Below are positions 3,759 to 20,903 of a stretch of DNA of 55,342 bases, in pieces (position 1 is the stretch's first letter; the number at the start of each line of letters is the position of its first letter). The notes beneath the pieces were generated by a model. That model saw nothing but the letters and a program-made list of their open reading frames with translations. It did no database searches and was not told where the DNA came from. Both the position numbers and the translations under genes were made by a program. The DNA is from a virus. The stretch spans positions 1 through 55,342 of IMG/VR virus record IMGVR_UViG_3300029286_000049, one strand, 5' to 3'.

Positions 3759-4730
3759 TCATTCCCCTATTTTATACATCATCGATGGATGTATAAACGG
3801 TCTTATCATATCTATCAAATGCCTACTTGAGTCCACAGTTAAGGAAAGATAATGTTGTTTATAAGTAAACTCTTTACGCTTTTTCTCTATCAGTCTAGCA
3901 TCCATATTGAATTTCTCGATAAAAAGCCTTTGGCATAATAGAGCATCTTCATAATATAGTCCTTCTATATGGAATCTAGACTGGTTTCCATCGCTAAATG
4001 AACCATCATCCATATACCAGTATGCTAGTCCCTCAGTGTCTAAGTTAGACATTAAGTATTCTAATGGAAATACTTTGCGATCTATCGGGTAGAATATACT
4101 TTTAATGTTTTCTATAAACTTGTTTGTCCCAGTCGTAAATCTCAAACCAAAACATATATTACCATAAGGGTCAGTCCCTATAGTATGCTGAAATGCCCCA
4201 GAATGTATCCTATCTAGTCTGCCCATTTTGTGAAAGAAATACTCTGATTGTTTATCAGAATGGGTACACCCATAAGCATTGCTATCTGTAATGCCGCCAT
4301 CACCCAAAAGGCTACCGGTTATTACTTGTTTCTCTCTGCTATCAAGATCAATGTCATAATACTTAAAGGCATCAGTATGGCTTTGTTCTTTACTCAAGCC
4401 TAGCTCTTTAAATCTGCGTTTAACAACAATTATGCTACACCCTACTTTCTCAGCTATCTCCTCATATGTCATCCCTTTAGATATGAACATTTCTGCTTCT
4501 GATAACTCTATATTATACTTCCTGTTTTTAGAAGCGTTCTTATTAGATTTAGTAGGTGTTCTATTTTCTATCCCAAACTTTTTACGTTTTCTCCATATTA
4601 CAGTTTTAGAAGGCATGCTATATTTGTCTGCAATCTGACCATCTGTTAAGCCATTTTTTACATATTCTTCTTCTAAAAGCTCTTTCGTTAAAAAATCATA
4701 TCTGTGAATACTTTCATATCTTTTATTCAT
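3759..4730 (-). CDS. Free-standing LAGLIDADG homing endonuclease
   Basis: The 323-residue protein carries two LAGLIDADG-type dodecapeptide motifs, ITGSLLGDGGIT (about 136-147) and LAYWYMDDGSFS (about 234-245), each with the acidic residue that binds metal. In front of them are two helix-turn-helix-like segments (LTDGQIADKYSMP and MTYEEIAEKVGC) that probably add DNA specificity. No intein or intron borders flank it, so it is a free-standing mobile gene lodged between a virion structural gene and the ADP-ribosyltransferase-like gene. AGGAG precedes the ATG. The likely target is a cognate intergenic site or neighbouring gene in related phages. Confidence 0.88.
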   Translation of the reverse strand: MNKRYESIHRYDFLTKELLEEEYVKNGLTDGQIADKYSMPSKTVIWRKRKKFGIENRTPTKSNKNASKNRKYNIELSEAEMFISKGMTYEEIAEKVGCSIIVVKRRFKELGLSKEQSHTDAFKYYDIDLDSREKQVITGSLLGDGGITDSNAYGCTHSDKQSEYFFHKMGRLDRIHSGAFQHTIGTDPYGNICFGLRFTTGTNKFIENIKSIFYPIDRKVFPLEYLMSNLDTEGLAYWYMDDGSFSDGNQSRFHIEGLYYEDALLCQRLFIEKFNMDARLIEKKRKEFTYKQHYLSLTVDSSRHLIDMIRPFIHPSMMYKIGE

Positions 4731-4790: not shown

Positions 4791-4800
4791 ATCCTTTAAA
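4791..4800 (-). promoter_or_regulatory. TTTAAAGGAT element with downstream TATAAT
   Basis: The minus strand has TTTAAAGGAT, then about 26 bases later GATATATAATATGG, which contains a good -10 hexamer, then the homing gene ATG at 4730. This spacing recurs upstream of 9848. The 89-base gap 4731-4819 holds nothing else recognisable. Confidence 0.4.
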
Positions 4801-4819
4801 TTATAAAATAAGTCTGAAA

Positions 4820-6103
4820 TTAGCTGCCACTATTAGTTCCGAACAAATATCTAAACCAGCGTGACCTCCCACCCGGCAATGTAAACTCTGGTACTACGAT
4901 ACTTCTCGTCAAACCGACATAAGGACCGAGCTTTTTGTTATTGAAGATGATCTTGCAATCTTCTTCATAGTTCTTCTTAAGTGACTCGAAGCCAGAGAAA
5001 GCATTCTTCGCCAATTCGCTACCACCAAACACCTGTTGCGGCTGCTGGAATTGAAGGGAGAAAAGCAGTTTTCTTAACGCGTCTGTAGCTGCTCTATAAA
5101 CGATACCTGGAATCCACTTATCATTGATAGACTTGACTGTATATCTTGAATGAGGAGGATAAGTATTAAATACGCCTACTGCCTGCGTTAGAAACATAGC
5201 CAAATCCGAATCAGAGAACCACCTAAAATTGTAATCGCAATTGACTACATCATAGCTTGTCAATGCCTTCTCAAAGGTAATTGTCCCCTTAAAGAAATCT
5301 ACTCTGATACCTTGAGTGACGGGTTGAGTATTAAGATAAACTTTTGTTCCTGCGCCCTGATTCCATCTTGGGAATGAGAAGTAGAATGTCTTATTATCGC
5401 TTGATGGTCTTGCCTGTTCATAAAGCACTGGAATACATTGAGCGCTTTCTATGTAAGATTCTAATACTGCTACTTGTTCTGGATATACCTTATCGTATAC
5501 CTTTGTATCTGTCTTTTCGACTACGGCAAGGTTTTGAACGAATGTAGTAGGTATTCCGTCTACGTTATAAAGCCATGTAGCAAGATACTGTCCAGATGGA
5601 GTAGTAGTAGAAATTGGCTCCCACGAATATGCGTAATAGCCTGGCTTTATGATTTTAGGAACGCCTTCGTCTATAACGTCTCCATCTGAGTTTGTTATTG
5701 TCACTGAAAGATTATCTGCATAGACTGGCATACCGTCCAAACGCGATGTCTTCATGAACATAATTGATTGTTCATCTTGTTCGAAATTGCCAGCAAAATC
5801 TGAGCAGGAATAGGAGTTTAGAACATCAGAAAATGGTCCTATCTGTTGAGTGACATATTTTGGATCGTCTGTTTCTTTTGGAAGGATCTCCCATGAAACG
5901 ACATAAACAATGTCATTTTCTGCATCAAAAGATTTCTCGTATCTTCCTGTAGATGGGTTAGTCACTGAAGTCCCGCTTGGAATAACAACAGTTCCGTTGC
6001 TTTCTTTGATACCGAAAGTCCCGTCTTCTGACGCTAGCTGTACTTGGTAGGCATCTGCAAGTTCGCCATTCTCTTTGTAATATATGTATACTTTCTTTGA
6101 CAT
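4820..6103 (-). CDS. Virion structural protein with Ig-like N-terminal part
   Basis: The 427-residue protein appears beta-rich, with segments such as VYVVSWEI, PKIIKPGYYAYSWEP and QYLATWLYNVDG that look like immunoglobulin-like strands, followed by a helical C-terminal part (DLAMFLTQAVGVFN, YRAATDALRKLLFSL). I do not recognise a named family. It is translationally coupled (shared base at 6103) to the next gene upstream and lies downstream of two fibre genes, so a baseplate, tail or fibre-attachment role is likely. The C-terminus PGGRSRWFRYLFG is basic and aromatic. Confidence 0.7.
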   Translation of the reverse strand: MSKKVYIYYKENGELADAYQVQLASEDGTFGIKESNGTVVIPSGTSVTNPSTGRYEKSFDAENDIVYVVSWEILPKETDDPKYVTQQIGPFSDVLNSYSCSDFAGNFEQDEQSIMFMKTSRLDGMPVYADNLSVTITNSDGDVIDEGVPKIIKPGYYAYSWEPISTTTPSGQYLATWLYNVDGIPTTFVQNLAVVEKTDTKVYDKVYPEQVAVLESYIESAQCIPVLYEQARPSSDNKTFYFSFPRWNQGAGTKVYLNTQPVTQGIRVDFFKGTITFEKALTSYDVVNCDYNFRWFSDSDLAMFLTQAVGVFNTYPPHSRYTVKSINDKWIPGIVYRAATDALRKLLFSLQFQQPQQVFGGSELAKNAFSGFESLKKNYEEDCKIIFNNKKLGPYVGLTRSIVVPEFTLPGGRSRWFRYLFGTNSGS

Positions 6104-15032: not shown

Positions 15033-16052
15033 TTAGAGATTTTCAAATATGTCTTGGTTCATATCCTTGTAATCTTTCAATGCCTGAATAGCCTTCTTCA
15101 TCCTGTTAACAGCTATCTGGAAATACTTAGGCTCTTTCTCTATCCCTACGAATCCTCTACCCGTAGAAAGGCAAGCAAGACCCGTTGTTCCAGATCCCAT
15201 AAACGGATCTAACACAACTCCGCCAGTAGGTGTCTTCGAAAGCTTCGTTAAGTATTCCATAACCTTAATTGGTTTAACTGTAGGATGCTCATTCCCATCT
15301 CCGCGTTCACTTCTACTCGCTTTGGCGCAATAGAAGAACCTAGATGCTCCTCCTTCGTCTCCATAAGTAATCTGAACATCACCTGCTTTCCCTAGTCCTC
15401 CATGCTCCATAAAAGAACCAGTTTGAGTCCTAGTGCAATTTGATCCAGACTTCAATACTCCACTCTGTTCATCAAGCATTCTAACAGGACAGCCTTCTAC
15501 ACAATCCCAATCTTCTACTGTTTCCATACCATCAGGACCAGCATGACCTCCGCATAACTCCACTTCTCTTCTGTAATGACCAGATTTGCCGTTATTATAC
15601 TTACCGCTAAACTTATCAGAAGTGTAATTGCAAGGCTTGTTGACTTGTCCCTTGACTTTTTTCATTCCCTTAAGTACGCAATCTGGAGAATGAGATAAAA
15701 TGAAGTTGGCTGGGAATCTCCCTTTGGAGCTTTCGCCATAAGGAGTCCCTTCGCCATTGTCATCAAATCCATCCCATCCATGACCTCTGGGTTTCTGCCA
15801 TTCCCATTGACCACCAGAACCGATTCTGCATCCATCAAGCCATAAACCGGCGACTCCATACTTCAAAGCATTCTCAGAAAATGTCCCCTCAATAGGTTTC
15901 ATTGCCATAATGATAGGTTCCCAAGCAGGTTTAAGAGGAGAAGATCTTAAAGTATGTACTTTCAAATCTTCTGGCATAACGAAAAGACCATCATCATCTT
16001 GAACTATATCATAATCTTTCCCATTATAATTTATTTTGTGTATCGTCGGCAT
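15033..16052 (-). CDS. DNA methyltransferase, C-terminal part (split gene)
   Basis: The 339-residue protein carries the second half of a beta-class DNA methylase (N4-cytosine or N6-adenine): RFPANFILSHSPDCV, SRFFYCAKASRSERG, EHPTVKPIKVMEYL and the SAM-binding motif VVLDPFMGSGTTGLA (about 280-294), then GRGFVGIEKEPKYF. It lacks the DPPY catalytic motif, which is in the part encoded at 16488-18194. Near its start LKPAWEPIIMAMKP repeats a segment also present at the end of the other part. An HNH gene lies between and overlaps its start by 29 bases. The two parts may assemble into one enzyme. Confidence 0.85.
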   Translation of the reverse strand: MPTIHKINYNGKDYDIVQDDDGLFVMPEDLKVHTLRSSPLKPAWEPIIMAMKPIEGTFSENALKYGVAGLWLDGCRIGSGGQWEWQKPRGHGWDGFDDNGEGTPYGESSKGRFPANFILSHSPDCVLKGMKKVKGQVNKPCNYTSDKFSGKYNNGKSGHYRREVELCGGHAGPDGMETVEDWDCVEGCPVRMLDEQSGVLKSGSNCTRTQTGSFMEHGGLGKAGDVQITYGDEGGASRFFYCAKASRSERGDGNEHPTVKPIKVMEYLTKLSKTPTGGVVLDPFMGSGTTGLACLSTGRGFVGIEKEPKYFQIAVNRMKKAIQALKDYKDMNQDIFENL

Positions 16053-16497
16053 TCTTATATACCTCCAGCGTTTCCAAAAATTTCATCAAATTTCTTATCT
16101 CTTGTAATGTTGCATTGCTTTTTAGCCTATTAGCTTTATGGCTCATTATCATAATGTTGCCTTTGACATATCCAAGCGATGGATCGATTCTGTCTAGCGA
16201 AGGACTATTATCTATCGGTCCATGTTTATCCGTATTATTACGATATAATTTTATGCCCAATACTGGACATATTTCTGGGATCTCCGGTATATCCTCCACT
16301 TTTATATCAAAAACAAAATTCTTTTTCTTGGCTCTCTTTTGCGCATCTAAATATATATCATATCTATTAGTTTTTGACAAACCATGAGTAGTATTCTGAC
16401 ATATTCGTGAACAATAATTATGAGAACATCTTCTTTGATGGGCTTTGCATCTATAGAACTTTTTACCGCAAATAGGGCAGGCGCAATTCATTTCCAT
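16024..16497 (-). CDS. HNH endonuclease between methylase halves
   Basis: The 157-residue protein begins with a zinc-finger-like CPICGKKFYRC...CSHNYCSRIC region and has an HNH-type core: CPVLGIKLYR, then SLDRIDPSLGYVKGN and IMIMSHKANRLKS. These features match phage HNH endonucleases of the homing kind. The start overlaps the methylase N-part stop (nine bases) and the end overlaps the C-part start (29 bases), so it is wedged exactly at the break. GGAG precedes its ATG. It is probably the element that divided, or that spreads with, the broken methylase gene. Confidence 0.82.
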   Translation of the reverse strand: MEMNCACPICGKKFYRCKAHQRRCSHNYCSRICQNTTHGLSKTNRYDIYLDAQKRAKKKNFVFDIKVEDIPEIPEICPVLGIKLYRNNTDKHGPIDNSPSLDRIDPSLGYVKGNIMIMSHKANRLKSNATLQEIRNLMKFLETLEVYKNADDTQNKL

Positions 16498-18194
16498 TTT
16501 ATTTCTCCGCTTACCCCACTTTCCCTTAATTTGATTTCTAATTCTTTCTGAACAGATTTAACCATATCCCATAAATCTGATATAGCAAATGGTTTCACTG
16601 CAACAATCACAGGTTCAAATGCAGGCTTTAGCGCTGTACCCCACCCATCCCAAAGCTTCGCATTATCAGTGGCAGGCGCAGTAATAAGTCCTGCTCCTTC
16701 AGATTTCAATTTGAAATCACCTACCTGACCATTCTGATGATTCTTCTCATTATTTGGGCGGATAGAAGAAACATCAATTCCAATTACTTCTCTTTCAACA
16801 CCAGCATCTTTGTCCATCTGCTTAGAAATGTCCAGACTTTTGGGAAATCCAGAATTACCAGTAATAAAGATTTTGCCATTCCTTCTTGCGACAAAAGCGC
16901 CAGTAGGAACCTGTACACACCAGACTTTTCCTTTATATTCTACTGGAGTTATTTCCGCCACAGAGGGAGAGGGAATCCTCTCGCCTCGTATAGTTTGTGA
17001 TCTTGATTGCTTGCAAATAACATCAGATTCATAATGTCGTTGTTTTCTGGATTGTGGTCCATATGGTGAACTGTCTCCGTTCTCAAAAGGCATCTCCCCA
17101 TCTCTTTCGCAACTATTAGGCGATGTTCCATAACATATCCGTCTTTCCTCGCCATCTGAATAAAGTCTTTCGGGCATCTGACATATTTTACTGGTTTGTA
17201 ATTGCCGTGTTTGCGGAAGTAAGTCACTCCTCCTTTCCAAGCCGGATTCAACGGTCCAGACATTTTCGCCGCAAAGCTGATAAAGCTCTGTGTAGTCCAC
17301 CCCGCAGCCCCTTTGTGACTGTGTTTTATAAGATCCTTTGCCCTCTCTTTCCCATTGCATTGAGTCGAGCATGTAGGATGCTTTACCCGTTTCAGCCAGC
17401 ACTTCTGCTTCCATATTTCTTTCCCGCAAACATGGCACTTTATTAAAATCATTCCCTTCAAATCTCTCGGATCTTTCTTCACTCGTTTCGATATGGCTGA
17501 TTTCATATTGCATTGCTGCGAACAAGTCTTGTTTCTTAATACTTGTGTGCGATTGAATGTCTGATATGGTTTCTGGCAAATCTCGCAGACTTTCCAGAAT
17601 GGGTACGCATATTTCTTGTTTTTGTGATGCTTCTTCAGCAAGTTCGAATAATAATTTTCCTTCTCGTTCAACAACGCAACGATGATTTCTGGAGACGAGC
17701 TGGTCTGTTTTATCTGATCTAATTCTGTAAGCGGTATATTTGTTATCATAATAGAAACTCCTTATTGGTTTATCAAAACAATACTCATTAGTTTCTATAT
17801 TATAACAAAGTACGAGATCATCCTTTATGTTTTTATGGTAGTGTACCCACCCATTACTTGTGAGTATCTCTGTATCTTCACTTAGACATCCATAAACCCA
17901 TTCAACACAATCTCTTATCTCCCATCCAGCATCCTCAATATCGCAAGCTAATCTATGAAATGTGCGAGTACCACCAAAACTAAATAGCATAGCGCCAGGC
18001 TTAGACGCATCTCTTACTGCATCCCAGAAGTCTTTACCGGGAACAGACTTATCCCATCCCTTAGACATAAAAACGATGCCGTAAGGCGGATCTGTCACGA
18101 CAGAGTCGATACTGTTCTTTTCTAATGTAGGTAATACTTCTAAACAATCGCCGCAATACAGAGTTATACCAAACTCTAACTCTACTTTCTCCAT
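16488..18194 (-). CDS. DNA methyltransferase N-terminal part, interrupted by intein
   Basis: The 568-codon frame encodes residues 1-102 of a beta-class DNA methylase (LYCGDCLEVLPTL; catalytic TDPPYG at 34-39; GAMLFSFGGTRTFHRLACDI), an intein at 103-447, and a C-extein at 448-568 beginning SGFPKSLDISKQMDKDAG. After splicing, 223 residues remain, ending soon after LKPAFEPVIVAVKP, so the SAM motif is missing and must come from the part at 15033-16052. The intein follows VEWVYG, a conserved methylase segment. AGGAG precedes the ATG. A second, out-of-frame gene is nested inside the intein. Confidence 0.88.
   Translation of the reverse strand: MEKVELEFGITLYCGDCLEVLPTLEKNSIDSVVTDPPYGIVFMSKGWDKSVPGKDFWDAVRDASKPGAMLFSFGGTRTFHRLACDIEDAGWEIRDCVEWVYGCLSEDTEILTSNGWVHYHKNIKDDLVLCYNIETNEYCFDKPIRSFYYDNKYTAYRIRSDKTDQLVSRNHRCVVEREGKLLFELAEEASQKQEICVPILESLRDLPETISDIQSHTSIKKQDLFAAMQYEISHIETSEERSERFEGNDFNKVPCLRERNMEAEVLAETGKASYMLDSMQWEREGKGSYKTQSQRGCGVDYTELYQLCGENVWTVESGLERRSDLLPQTRQLQTSKICQMPERLYSDGEERRICYGTSPNSCERDGEMPFENGDSSPYGPQSRKQRHYESDVICKQSRSQTIRGERIPSPSVAEITPVEYKGKVWCVQVPTGAFVARRNGKIFITGNSGFPKSLDISKQMDKDAGVEREVIGIDVSSIRPNNEKNHQNGQVGDFKLKSEGAGLITAPATDNAKLWDGWGTALKPAFEPVIVAVKPFAISDLWDMVKSVQKELEIKLRESGVSGEIKWK
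16854..17888 (-). mobile_element. Intein in methylase, HNH encoded in another frame
   Basis: The intein of 345 residues starts at Cys103 (CLSEDTEILTSNG, block A), has block B TDQLVSRNHRCVV (T-x-x-H), and ends with block F/G-like KGKVWCVQVPTG and GKIFITGN followed by Ser+1. The central in-frame region is unusual: rich in Glu, Arg, Ser and Gln, with no recognisable endonuclease. The +1 frame of the same DNA (16949-17749) encodes an HNH endonuclease. The intein frame stays open over about 800 bases of overlap, which implies selection on both frames. Confidence 0.9.
16949..17749 (-). CDS. HNH homing endonuclease nested out-of-frame in intein
   Basis: The 266-residue protein is encoded on the same strand as the methylase intein but in a different frame. 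It has two zinc-finger-like pairs (CEICQKPYQTF...CSQQC and CHVCGKEIWKQ...CSTQC), the motif GPLNPAWKGG, then an HNH domain: GYVMEHRLIVAKEMG, VHHMDHNPENND and NLMLFASNQDHKLYE. A strong AAGGAG lies eight bases before its ATG, inside intein coding sequence, so it can be translated independently. It probably cleaves intein-less methylase alleles and drives intein spread. It is too long and too well structured to be a chance shadow of the intein frame. Confidence 0.85.
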   Translation of the reverse strand: MITNIPLTELDQIKQTSSSPEIIVALLNEKENYYSNLLKKHHKNKKYAYPFWKVCEICQKPYQTFNRTQVLRNKTCSQQCNMKSAISKRVKKDPRDLKGMILIKCHVCGKEIWKQKCWLKRVKHPTCSTQCNGKERAKDLIKHSHKGAAGWTTQSFISFAAKMSGPLNPAWKGGVTYFRKHGNYKPVKYVRCPKDFIQMARKDGYVMEHRLIVAKEMGRCLLRTETVHHMDHNPENNDIMNLMLFASNQDHKLYEARGFPLPLWRK

Positions 18195-18206: not shown

Positions 18207-18920
18207 TTAATGTGAATCAGTTCCACCTTTCCTAGCCAAATAATCTGCGCTGACAGCTTTCAAGATGATTCTACCATTCGTGCTAGTAGGAATCATAATC
18301 GGGTCAATCCTCTCAATGACAGGAGTGACAACAGCGCCCTCTCTACCTTTGAACTTGCCTACTACTTTATTCGGATCACAAAACGAAGTAGGACCAGAAA
18401 CAAGGTCTTCCAATACCTTTTTGCTAAATGGTCCACGATAAAGCAATGGGACCATCGGCACTTCGAATTTCAGGCAGAAAAACTTCTTTGCATCATAGCT
18501 CATATACCTTCTATTTACGGCAATGTCGAAGACTCTGGCAGTCTTTTCCTTCAATCCGTATTGCATATCCTGAACACCTGGACCTATCATCTCGCCAAAA
18601 ACGATAGCGCTGAATATGTCCTCTCCTGCATCATATGTCTTGATAATCTCATTCAACATATCTTTCATGTTCTGAGTAAAAATCATCCAGAACTTAGAAG
18701 GTATTCCCCTTGCATCAAACTCTTTCCTACGATTTTCATGGCTACCGGCACAAAGAGTCCAAATAGGTTTGCCACTCTCGTCTGTGTCGAGAACATTACC
18801 GAATCTTGCATTAGAATTATGTACTACTATTTTGTTTGCTACAAAATTATGTACATCTTCTATTACGAGATCCCAACGATCAAACTGTTCTTCTAAAATC
18901 TCTTTTTTTGTCAATCTCAT
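18207..18920 (-). CDS. RNA ligase C-terminal part with split-intein C-half
   Basis: Residues 1-35 are the C-half of a split intein (MRLTKKEILEEQFD...FVANKIVVHN), followed by Ser+1. From there the protein continues an RNA ligase just after active-site motif I: SNARFGNVL, then WTLCAGSHENRRKEFDARG, GEMIGPGVQDMQYGL, FCLKFEVPMVPLLYRGPF and EGAVVTPV (motifs III to V of the nucleotidyltransferase). AGAGG precedes the ATG. It must be joined by trans-splicing to the product of the gene at 19874-20836 to give a working enzyme of about 420 residues. A homing gene lies between the two parts. Confidence 0.9.
   Translation of the reverse strand: MRLTKKEILEEQFDRWDLVIEDVHNFVANKIVVHNSNARFGNVLDTDESGKPIWTLCAGSHENRRKEFDARGIPSKFWMIFTQNMKDMLNEIIKTYDAGEDIFSAIVFGEMIGPGVQDMQYGLKEKTARVFDIAVNRRYMSYDAKKFFCLKFEVPMVPLLYRGPFSKKVLEDLVSGPTSFCDPNKVVGKFKGREGAVVTPVIERIDPIMIPTSTNGRIILKAVSADYLARKGGTDSH
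18816..18920 (-). mobile_element. Split intein, C-terminal half
   Basis: Thirty-five residues, about the size of the C-half of the gp41-1 class of split inteins. The block G end is IVVHN followed by Ser. The block F region is LVIEDVHNFVANKIVV. Confidence 0.9.
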
Positions 18921-19821
18921 TTCTTATCCTCTCGATTTCTCGCTCTGGGTATTTTCTAAAATCACCATCCCACACAACAACGACACTATAACCATGTTTA
19001 TAGAAACAAGCTAGTCTGCGTCTATCTCTCTGCCACTGCTCTTTCACTGTCCTTTGTATAGCTGTAATATATTGATCTGGATTTTTATAACGTTTAGGAT
19101 TGCAATGGTATAAATCTCCATACATTTCTACAATAATTTTTAGATCATGATTTATTTCATCAGGGACAAAACCATGAAATACCTCTTCTGATACGAAGCC
19201 ATCATATACCTTGCTTTCTATCATCTTGTTTTTAAGTAAATCAGAAGATGTAGATCGGCTTTTCCCATAACTTTTACAAAAAGCATCTATGATGTGATTT
19301 TTAGTTTCATCATCATAATTTTCCCATACTTTTACCATTCTTTCTGATTTTCTTTTGCATATATCTTTGAACTTTTCCGAATCTTTTCTGAAATTATCCC
19401 ATTGCTTAGACACCGCACTTGATCTCATTTCTGAGCTTACTGCGTCACGAGCCATTTTGCTATAAATAATTCTCTGGTCTTTTGTAAAAGACGTTTGAGT
19501 GTTTTTCATTGTTTCAGAAGATATCTTTTTACAACAATCTTTACATACAGGACCGCCTTTTCTCTTATGTATTTTTTCCTTATACTTTTTAATAATGCAT
19601 CCATTCCCGCAGATCCTACATCCTATTTTAATAAGAGATTGACCATCTGGAGAATTCCTTATTTTATCATTATATTCTTTATTTTTTCTTTTCTCATCAT
19701 CTTTTCTACAAGATATACAAAGCGGACCTCCATGCTTAATAGCTTTTTCCAAAGACATAAATATATTTACTTCCGCATTACATTTTAGGCATTTACATAC
19801 TGCTATAATTCTTTTAGTCAT
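18880..19821 (-). CDS. Vsr/EDxHD-like homing endonuclease between split-intein halves
   Basis: I place the start at the ATG 19821 (MTKRIIAVCKC), preceded by AGGAG, rather than at an upstream in-frame ATG that lacks one; this gives 313 residues. The N-terminal part has several Cys pairs (CKCLKC, CISC, CRIC, CKDCC), suggesting zinc fingers. The C-terminal part matches Vsr-like endonucleases: KVYDGFVSEEV, IIVEMYGDLYHCNP, QWQRDRRRLACFYKHGY and VVVVWDGDF. This family is known from fractured genes where a split intein flanks an endonuclease gene (Dassa and colleagues, 2009). The end overlaps the ligase C-part by 41 bases. Confidence 0.85.
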   Translation of the reverse strand: MTKRIIAVCKCLKCNAEVNIFMSLEKAIKHGGPLCISCRKDDEKRKNKEYNDKIRNSPDGQSLIKIGCRICGNGCIIKKYKEKIHKRKGGPVCKDCCKKISSETMKNTQTSFTKDQRIIYSKMARDAVSSEMRSSAVSKQWDNFRKDSEKFKDICKRKSERMVKVWENYDDETKNHIIDAFCKSYGKSRSTSSDLLKNKMIESKVYDGFVSEEVFHGFVPDEINHDLKIIVEMYGDLYHCNPKRYKNPDQYITAIQRTVKEQWQRDRRRLACFYKHGYSVVVVWDGDFRKYPEREIERIRNEIDKKRDFRRTV

Positions 19822-19873
19822 AACAAATCTCCTATTTACACCGTATACATATATATACGGAGCAAAGTGAGAT

Positions 19874-20170
19874 TTATCCTTTATCAAAACTTTTAATTTC
19901 ATCATTTTCTGTTAAAAGCCCAGCACTTACCCATCCTCTATTAGATGTTAAAATCAGATGATCATCAGTACAGCAAATGAAATCTCCATTATCGAAATGC
20001 AATTTAATCCACTCCTTCGATTTATCTTGTCTCACAACATCTATAACTCTTTTTTCAACGAATTCATTTTTTTCTTGGTCAAAAGAAATTACATATTGAC
20101 CAGGTATTATCTCCGATATGTTTCTCTCTTCTCCATTAGCCAGCATTACTTTAGAGTCTTCTCTAAGGCA
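19874..20170 (-). mobile_element. Split intein, N-terminal half
   Basis: Ninety-eight residues from CLREDSKVMLANGEERN (block A) through a block B-like FICCTDDHLIL (T-x-x-H) to the stop after SFDKG. Size and layout match natural split intein N-halves. Confidence 0.9.
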
Positions 20171-20836
20171 TCCGTGAAGCTTTTCTGTAATTACAACTTC
20201 CTCGCCTTCTTTGATAACATCTGGGAAGTTAGCGAAATGTTCAATGTCGGTATACTTGTGGAAAAGCCTATGAGGTCTTTCGGCATCGCCATCGCAGCAT
20301 TCCATTGGAGGCTCCCACTTCGTAATTCCGAAATGTTCTTTTACATCAGTACCATCAACCCAATTAGGATCATCGCCTTTGTATGGATCGATATGGATGA
20401 TAAAACCAAAAGACTCTACTCCTCTCAAACGAGAAGCTTTAACTCTGCCTCCGGGTTGTTTCTCTCCGTCTGGAGTTTTAGGAAGCTCTGCGCAATAGTT
20501 CATAACACCCAATCTGCCGGGAGTTCCATCTTTCCATTGCAATTTCTCTCCGCAAATTACGCAAATGCCCTGTCCCGCATCAGACATCTTATTGAACATC
20601 TGACACTTTTCGTTTTTACAGACTTTCTCTGGACTGTTTGCCAATTTAGGCGGGAGAATGGAATCAGGCGGAAAATAAACACACAGATCGCCCTCATTAA
20701 ACTCTGCTCTTTGATGGACAGGATCATAACGAATGCAAGTTTTCCAACCCTTGACAGTGGCAATAGCAAGTTTATCTGCTGCCGGATGCTTTTCTACCTT
20801 ATCGACTTTACACACTTCAACTATGAGGCTACTCAT
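19874..20836 (-). CDS. RNA ligase N-terminal part with split-intein N-half
   Basis: I prefer the start MSSLIVEV at 20836 (or MIM at 20842), after GGGGGAAA; ten upstream in-frame codons are unlikely. The N-terminal OB-like domain (VEKHPAADKLAIATVKGW, GDLCVYFPPDSILP, SRLRGVESFGFI) resembles the DraRnl-type RNA ligases, with an extra Cys-rich insert (CKNEKCQMF...CVICGEK). The extein ends at EVVITEKLHG, the motif I K-x-x-G whose Lys is the adenylated nucleophile. The next residue is Cys1 of the intein N-half (98 residues). The split thus falls inside the active site, so no ligase can act before trans-splicing. Likely role: RNA repair. Confidence 0.9.
   Translation of the reverse strand: MSSLIVEVCKVDKVEKHPAADKLAIATVKGWKTCIRYDPVHQRAEFNEGDLCVYFPPDSILPPKLANSPEKVCKNEKCQMFNKMSDAGQGICVICGEKLQWKDGTPGRLGVMNYCAELPKTPDGEKQPGGRVKASRLRGVESFGFIIHIDPYKGDDPNWVDGTDVKEHFGITKWEPPMECCDGDAERPHRLFHKYTDIEHFANFPDVIKEGEEVVITEKLHGCLREDSKVMLANGEERNISEIIPGQYVISFDQEKNEFVEKRVIDVVRQDKSKEWIKLHFDNGDFICCTDDHLILTSNRGWVSAGLLTENDEIKSFDKG
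19876..19885 (-). promoter_or_regulatory. GATAAAGGAT element at end of split-intein N-half
   Basis: The element overlaps the last codons and stop of the ligase N-part and lies about 55 bases before the homing gene ATG at 19821. It is followed by GTATATATATGTATACGG. This suggests the homing gene has its own transcription start. Confidence 0.35.
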
Positions 20837-20903
20837 TATCATTTTCCCCCGAAATAGAAACGACACTTCCCCTAATACAACTTGTTATATTCTACCAGAT
20901 ATG

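Follow-up and report, generated by a model that had tools for sequence, protein, structure and literature searches.

The 55,342-nucleotide stretch of viral DNA analysed here (the window) is a virus record of the IMG/VR type and probably a fragment. It carries an insert in a phage DNA methylase that is very probably a homing element, one that assigns the splicing and endonuclease functions of a classical intein to two overlapping reading frames. Textbook inteins have their splicing and endonuclease domains fused in one frame. Here, the host frame encodes blocks A, B, F and G of a Hint splicing domain whose interior is a long, open, disordered peptide replacing the in-frame endonuclease, and the +1 frame encodes a zinc-finger HNH nuclease, most likely made by internal initiation on the same transcript. 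The open host frame would permit translation through the methylase and then splicing-out of the whole insert as a mini-intein, while the HNH nuclease would cut intein-free methylase alleles, with repair copying the element in; splicing, empty-site cleavage and internal initiation are the steps that we infer. The proposal that splicing and endonuclease had been uncoupled into overprinted genes goes back to a first-pass annotation of the window and is now supported by homologous loci.

Organisation of the locus

All of the features described below for the window lie on the minus strand. The host (extein) ORF (16488–18194) is the N-terminal part of a DNA methylase of the N6/N4 type, which matches the PHROG 67 DNA methyltransferase family (E = 8e-27) and Pfam N6_N4_Mtase (E = 6.6e-5, slightly short of the curated cut-off). 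An intein of 345 aa (16854–17888), recognised by C1, N345 and Ser+1 as well as by profile and fold matches, is inserted in the context WVYG/C...TGN/SGFPKS, where the left flank in the methylase reads CVEWVYG and the right flank SGFPKS. The HNH endonuclease ORF (16949–17749; 266 aa plus stop) lies entirely within the intein, on the same strand and shifted by +1, and a Shine-Dalgarno-like AAGGAG (17758–17763) stands 8 nt 5' of its ATG. These coordinates and frames, and the motifs VHHMDHNPENND and DHKLYE in the HNH protein, agree with the first-pass annotation. The window HNH matches Pfam HNH_3 (E = 4.4e-7) at residues 209–249, the catalytic core (17003–17125), and a PHROG HNH family (E = 1.2e-18), and it has the conserved Cys pairs (zinc fingers) and the HH/N/H residues of the HNH catalytic motif. 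Its ORF is conserved in an alignment of 34 rows. Across the window intein, the intein frame contains no stops and the third frame 35. A group I or group II intron was considered and rejected, as no Rfam match in the region came near significance.

The methylase of the window is additionally split downstream by a second nuclease ORF, which we count against the proposed explanation. The N part ends soon after AFEPVIVAVKP (the split occupies 15033–16497), an endonuclease-VII-like HNH ORF (16497–16024) follows it, and the coding sequence then resumes as a C part that begins with a duplicated LKPAWEPIIMAMKP motif. Other phages have the ShiLan insert at about the place of this break. The RNA-ligase gene directly upstream of the methylase is fractured by a split intein (18207–20866), with Int-N ending the ORF 20866–19874, Int-C beginning the ORF 18920–18207 and a free MTES_1575-type nuclease ORF (19905–18880) between the two. 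It is a second intein near the methylase, uncoupled in a different manner.

Recurrence in other viruses

The tblastn searches, run with each frame separately, matched the same place in LR756508.1, an uncultured 484-kb phage (megaphage), with 39.9% identity over 99% of the HNH frame and 32.9% identity over 100% of the intein frame. The methylase ORF of this phage is continuous and carries its intein at the same site, once more with the HNH at +1. IMG/VR yielded no matches to a single-sequence HNH query; alignment queries from either frame succeeded and brought more than 50 contigs with the same methylase site and layout, the HNH being invariably at +1, so that the HNH frame sought at the same offset in homologues was found. 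In the scan with the HNH alignment, the host (−1) frame was without stops in 71 of the 72 loci examined, and the host ORF of those 71 belonged to the same methylase family. This is the opposite of open intein middles lacking an HNH frame, which the first-pass annotation had named as contrary evidence. The sole exception, L132, is a close but free-standing relative with 16 stops in that frame.

The recurrence of the same layout in dozens of divergent viruses indicates that it is real and selected, and not a sequencing error. Single-contig frameshifts are common in metagenomes and the observation started with one contig, yet the chance that an indel in assembly or sequencing displaced the HNH from the intein frame, an artefact already contemplated in the first-pass annotation, is practically negligible: LR756508.1 and 73 unique loci drawn from many assemblies replicate the +1 offset with both frames open, and throughout the alignment block F of the intein is back in the intein frame past the HNH stop.

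The loci fall into two classes. In the first (58 unique loci) the HNH is within an intein, and in the second (15 loci) it is within an unspliced methylase insert situated slightly downstream, between GFPKSLN and GWGTALKP. No long alternative HNH frame was found in same-site inteins with in-frame LAGLIDADG-type domains, and none of the six matches from a scan of genome contigs with the intein pair had an out-of-frame HNH. The plasmid search returned one related HNH, which adjoins a methylase in Curtobacterium and lies outside any intein.

Several loci have layouts of their own. L038 (3001–4281) and L128 have a hidden HNH (353 and 321 codons, respectively) with additional zinc-finger-like units, and their intein frame is lengthened, yet open. 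L146 (3346–6069) has a single methylase ORF of 908 codons with two hidden HNH genes in two alternative frames, the one in the intein at +1 (3965–4471) and the one at the ShiLan-type site at +2 (4797–5249). An out-of-frame HNH insert of the ShiLan type is also present in a cyanophage methylase, that of Cylindrospermopsis phage Cr-LKS3 (L207, 1965–3815), and so beyond mycobacteriophages. The methylase of Mycobacterium phage Mantra (gp64; L003, 1455–3779) has an in-frame LAGLIDADG insert and an out-of-frame HNH, without an intein.

Stop avoidance in the host frame

Stop avoidance was analysed for the 73 unique loci (58 intein and 15 unspliced methylase inserts) against a null in which each HNH gene's own synonymous codons were shuffled, so that protein and codon usage were preserved. 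Not one host-frame stop was seen over the HNH genes, against 685.5 expected, and the per-locus shuffling gave p < 0.05 at every locus (73/73) and p < 0.001 at 62. The third frame of the same loci showed no avoidance (896 stops versus 827 expected), and in the frame corresponding to the host frame, six more distant free-standing HNH genes had 4–45 stops and L132 had 17–18. In the window alone, a mean of 11.6 intein-frame stops is expected and a zero-stop outcome did not occur in 2000 shuffles; the openness of the intein frame over about 800 bases of overlap, remarked upon in the first-pass annotation, is thus beyond chance.

Selection on the two frames

The HNH wobble test was based on intein-class loci, taken in 1331 pairs that are 30–60% identical in the HNH. 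The HNH wobble base, which is position 1 of the intein codon, was compared with a null that keeps the protein, the codon usage and the no-stop rule; the pairs share history and are not independent, and z-scores are effect sizes, not p-values. Wobble identity was 0.81–0.87 over the first 40 aligned residues, where 0.39–0.47 was expected, and 0.65 over the next 20 (0.44 expected). It was at the null or slightly higher through most of the middle, and it reached 0.64 in the last 10 residues (0.375 expected). The reverse test concerned the wobble base of the intein codons (position 2 in the HNH), which was conserved at 1.45–2.7 times expectation through the overlap, with ratios of 1.45–1.67 over the dual-coding stretch at block B. 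Right after the HNH stop the ratio was at background (0.96–1.01), and in the exteins, which served as the baseline, it was 1.00–1.08; since this baseline is near 1, shared ancestry adds little to the wobble signal. Four closer pairs change in the middle chiefly at HNH position 3, and in block B their HNH positions 2 and 3 vary equally, while position 1, the middle base of the intein codon, varies least.

From both wobble tests and the four closer pairs, therefore, the HNH is selected as a protein along the whole overlap, and the amino acids of the intein are selected at its two ends only, over about 60 codons at block B and about 10 before block F. The intein middle of about 190 codons is kept open and is essentially unconstrained at the amino-acid level. 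In the window, the true dual-coding stretch, delimited by the wobble tests of both frames, comprises HNH residues 1–55 over block B (17585–17749), and the open middle, delimited by pLDDT and the HNH wobble test, comprises intein residues 143–301 (16986–17462). The constraint on both frames that the first-pass annotation had supposed for the overlap as a whole thus holds at its two ends; between them, the intein frame is only kept free of stops. Amino-acid constraint over the whole intein frame was rejected for the middle by the wobble test and the four closer pairs.

The similarity of intein-frame sequences does continue through the middle, as it would if the middle served as a functional domain of the intein frame, with the HNH frame arising as a by-product. 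This is highly improbable, because the conserved base there is the intein wobble base (HNH codon position 2; ratio up to 2.7), the HNH wobble is at or near the null and the middle is predicted to be disordered; the HNH frame, by contrast, matches known HNH families. Middles unusually rich in Arg, Glu and Gln, which the first-pass annotation mentioned for inteins at this site, are indeed seen in the homologues, and their reading as the shadow of the HNH frame is supported.

Splicing features and predicted fold of the intein

In the alignment of 34 inteins, Cys1, the position-1 nucleophile, is invariant (34/34), and so is the C-terminal Asn, N345, with Ser+1 present in the SGFPKS site. Block B has the form SxxH/TxxH, with H69 invariant and S66 nearly so in place of the canonical Thr, and the residues of block F are likewise invariant or nearly so. 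The penultimate residue of the intein is Gly and not the usual His, which we count against the proposed explanation, as we do the result of the Pfam Intein_splicing model, which matches 6 of 33 inteins, the window copy not among them. A profile of the intein family matches 6zgq, the AceL NrdHF intein (E = 8.7e-7), and the model of the window intein matches the AceL NrdHF intein in Foldseek (E = 8.4e-6), along with other inteins in the PDB.

Structure predictions were made without the LR756508 row. AlphaFold2 gave the intein frame a mean pLDDT of 83–94 per ten residues up to about residue 130, below 50 over residues 143–302 and above 90 over residues 311–345. The N-terminal part with blocks A and B (residues 1–142; 17463–17888) is predicted to be ordered, and pLDDT together with the wobble test delimits a C-terminal Hint part with blocks F and G (residues 307–345; 16854–16970). 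Both predicted ends resemble solved inteins, consistent with a Hint fold. No endonuclease domain was recognised in the intein-frame middle, in line with the first-pass annotation, which saw none in the intein's own frame, and this middle is predicted to be disordered; in this respect the element is not a full-length intein. An in-frame endonuclease is a usual and not an obligatory feature, and mini-inteins exist without one. The Cys of block F (VWCV; residue 324 of the window intein) is invariant along with Cys1 (alignment A4), and the nearest solved intein is described as class 3.

The same HNH family is present unspliced in the methylase at 15 loci and the ShiLan domain offers a precedent (PMC11855218), so that the host frame might be open for methylase read-through only, around a non-splicing intein that stays in the protein. 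We regard this as very unlikely, in view of the invariance or near-invariance of C1, H69, the block F residues and N345, the presence of Ser+1 and the strong selection on block B amino acids under the HNH, for which read-through has no need.

Predicted fold and probable start of the HNH nuclease

In the AlphaFold2 model the HNH frame folds throughout (mean pLDDT 87), and helices 7–14 and 20–38 overprint block B of the intein. A PDB fold search with this model gave no confident match, which counts against the proposed explanation and leaves the HNH identity resting on sequence profiles.

The aligned HNH start column has ATG or GTG in 28 of 50 class-A loci. A Shine-Dalgarno match of at least 5 nt occurs at 8 of the 28 starts, compared with 4.3% of background windows. 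Start codons are thus present and Shine-Dalgarno matches exceed background, and internal initiation of the HNH is accordingly likely at many loci, including the window, as judged from these sequence signals. The lack of a start codon in that column at the remaining 22 loci and the lack of a strong Shine-Dalgarno sequence at most starts are both counted against the proposed explanation. Programmed frameshifting from the intein frame, which would join N-extein, Hint N-part and HNH in one protein and need no separate HNH start, would account for the 22 loci and fits several loci whose HNH frame has no stop from close to the intein start onwards. It is unlikely nevertheless, since a stop closes the HNH frame of the window 5 codons before the ATG with its AAGGAG, Shine-Dalgarno sequences are enriched over background at HNH starts and many HNH ORFs of the unspliced class have an ATG slightly 5' of the first zinc finger.

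Mobility and history

The divergence of the element is only weakly correlated with that of the extein (Spearman 0.14–0.25), and in some pairs the elements resemble each other far more than the exteins do; in L178 and L180, for instance, the inteins are 83% identical in DNA and the flanking exteins 56%. This decoupling indirectly supports the idea that the HNH would cut the element-free allele. HNH proteins serve several phage functions, and a role other than homing (packaging, nicking of competitors or regulation) could be envisaged for this one, but it is unlikely given that the HNH lies in an insert that is site-specific and decoupled in its relatedness from the host gene, and that its close relatives by HNH sequence are all in the same methylase family, except L132. 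In L037 an intein of 199 residues has been retained and the HNH core lost, a decay form such as the homing cycle predicts.

In the splicing-domain tree, 52 of 53 dual inteins group in one clade (SH-aLRT 97), apart from same-site LAGLIDADG inteins. The remaining one, L033, has an HNH that begins only within or after block B. The HNH tree, built without the distant free-standing rows, which gave long branches, nests the intein-borne L146 in a clade (99/100) whose other members are all unspliced inserts, and by this placement at least one transfer of the HNH cassette between an intein and an unspliced site is probable. A more far-reaching scenario, to which we give about an even chance, is that the HNH family is 'frame-transparent', with one alternative frame free of stops, and so would leave the host ORF that it occupies intact and could shift between inteins and unspliced sites of one and the same methylase. 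The nuclease of the main intein lineage would have gained an N-terminal helical segment overprinting block B, with about 60 codons encoding two folded domains, the beta-strands of the Hint and the helices of the HNH.

Relation to known systems

The first-pass annotation suspected a widespread, overlooked element. It is widespread in the methylase; the principle, though, was already published for unspliced inserts of mycobacteriophages (PMC11855218). The ShiLan domain is an out-of-frame HNH in a mycobacteriophage DNA methylase, without a splicing domain and proposed to remain in the protein, and the Pacc40 insert is a second case in a methylase (Arsenault, Gosselin and Gogarten 2025, PMC11855218); Applejack resembles the ShiLan-type case (PMC12613952). 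Like ShiLan and Pacc40, the element described here conceals an HNH gene within an open methylase ORF, in one of the other frames, and has a patchy distribution, and its HNH is homologous to those of the ShiLan type, that of Mantra being 27–33% identical. Unlike it, ShiLan occupies a different methylase site and the other alternative frame (+2) and has no splicing domain, its own intein being a separate, in-frame LAGLIDADG-type one; the present element thus shares with the ShiLan type the open methylase ORF with an alternative-frame HNH, and not the site, the third frame or the lack of a splicing domain. As the HNH lies inside an intein here, the overprinted peptide should be spliced out, unlike that of ShiLan.

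Bobi and ShiLan have mycobacteriophage methylase inteins at the same site with an in-frame LAGLIDADG (DOD) endonuclease (PMC9957025, PMC5050341). The insertion site, WVYG/C..N/SGFPKS, and the splicing blocks of these classical inteins are shared by ours, whereas the endonuclease here is of the HNH type, in a shifted frame, and the splicing domains of 52 of the 53 dual inteins form a separate clade. The 'fractured genes' of Dassa et al. 2009 are reportedly split inteins whose two halves are separated by an endonuclease gene. Splicing and endonuclease are genetically uncoupled there as well, but the nuclease ORF lies between two intein genes, and here it overlaps one continuous intein ORF. Group I introns may also carry HNH homing endonucleases, e.g., I-HmuI and I-PfoP3I, and are similar in being self-removing elements with an HNH gene; they differ in that the present element is expected to be removed from the protein and not from the RNA.

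No description of an HNH nested in an intein was found in the open-licence PMC literature searched, a body that does not include the preprint 10.1101/2025.01.02.630785 on non-canonical actinophage inteins. The principle of an out-of-frame HNH in phage methylases has been known since 2025, when the unspliced ShiLan domain was published, and what appears to be new here is the intein with an overprinted HNH. Because the host frame alone is called, annotation pipelines overlook such nucleases. In dozens of viruses, splicing and endonuclease are here encoded by genes that overlap on one stretch of DNA. This provides a sizeable data set for overprinting studies, graded naturally from true dual coding at block B to passenger sequence merely kept open, and shows that a nuclease gene can occupy an ORF without an intron.
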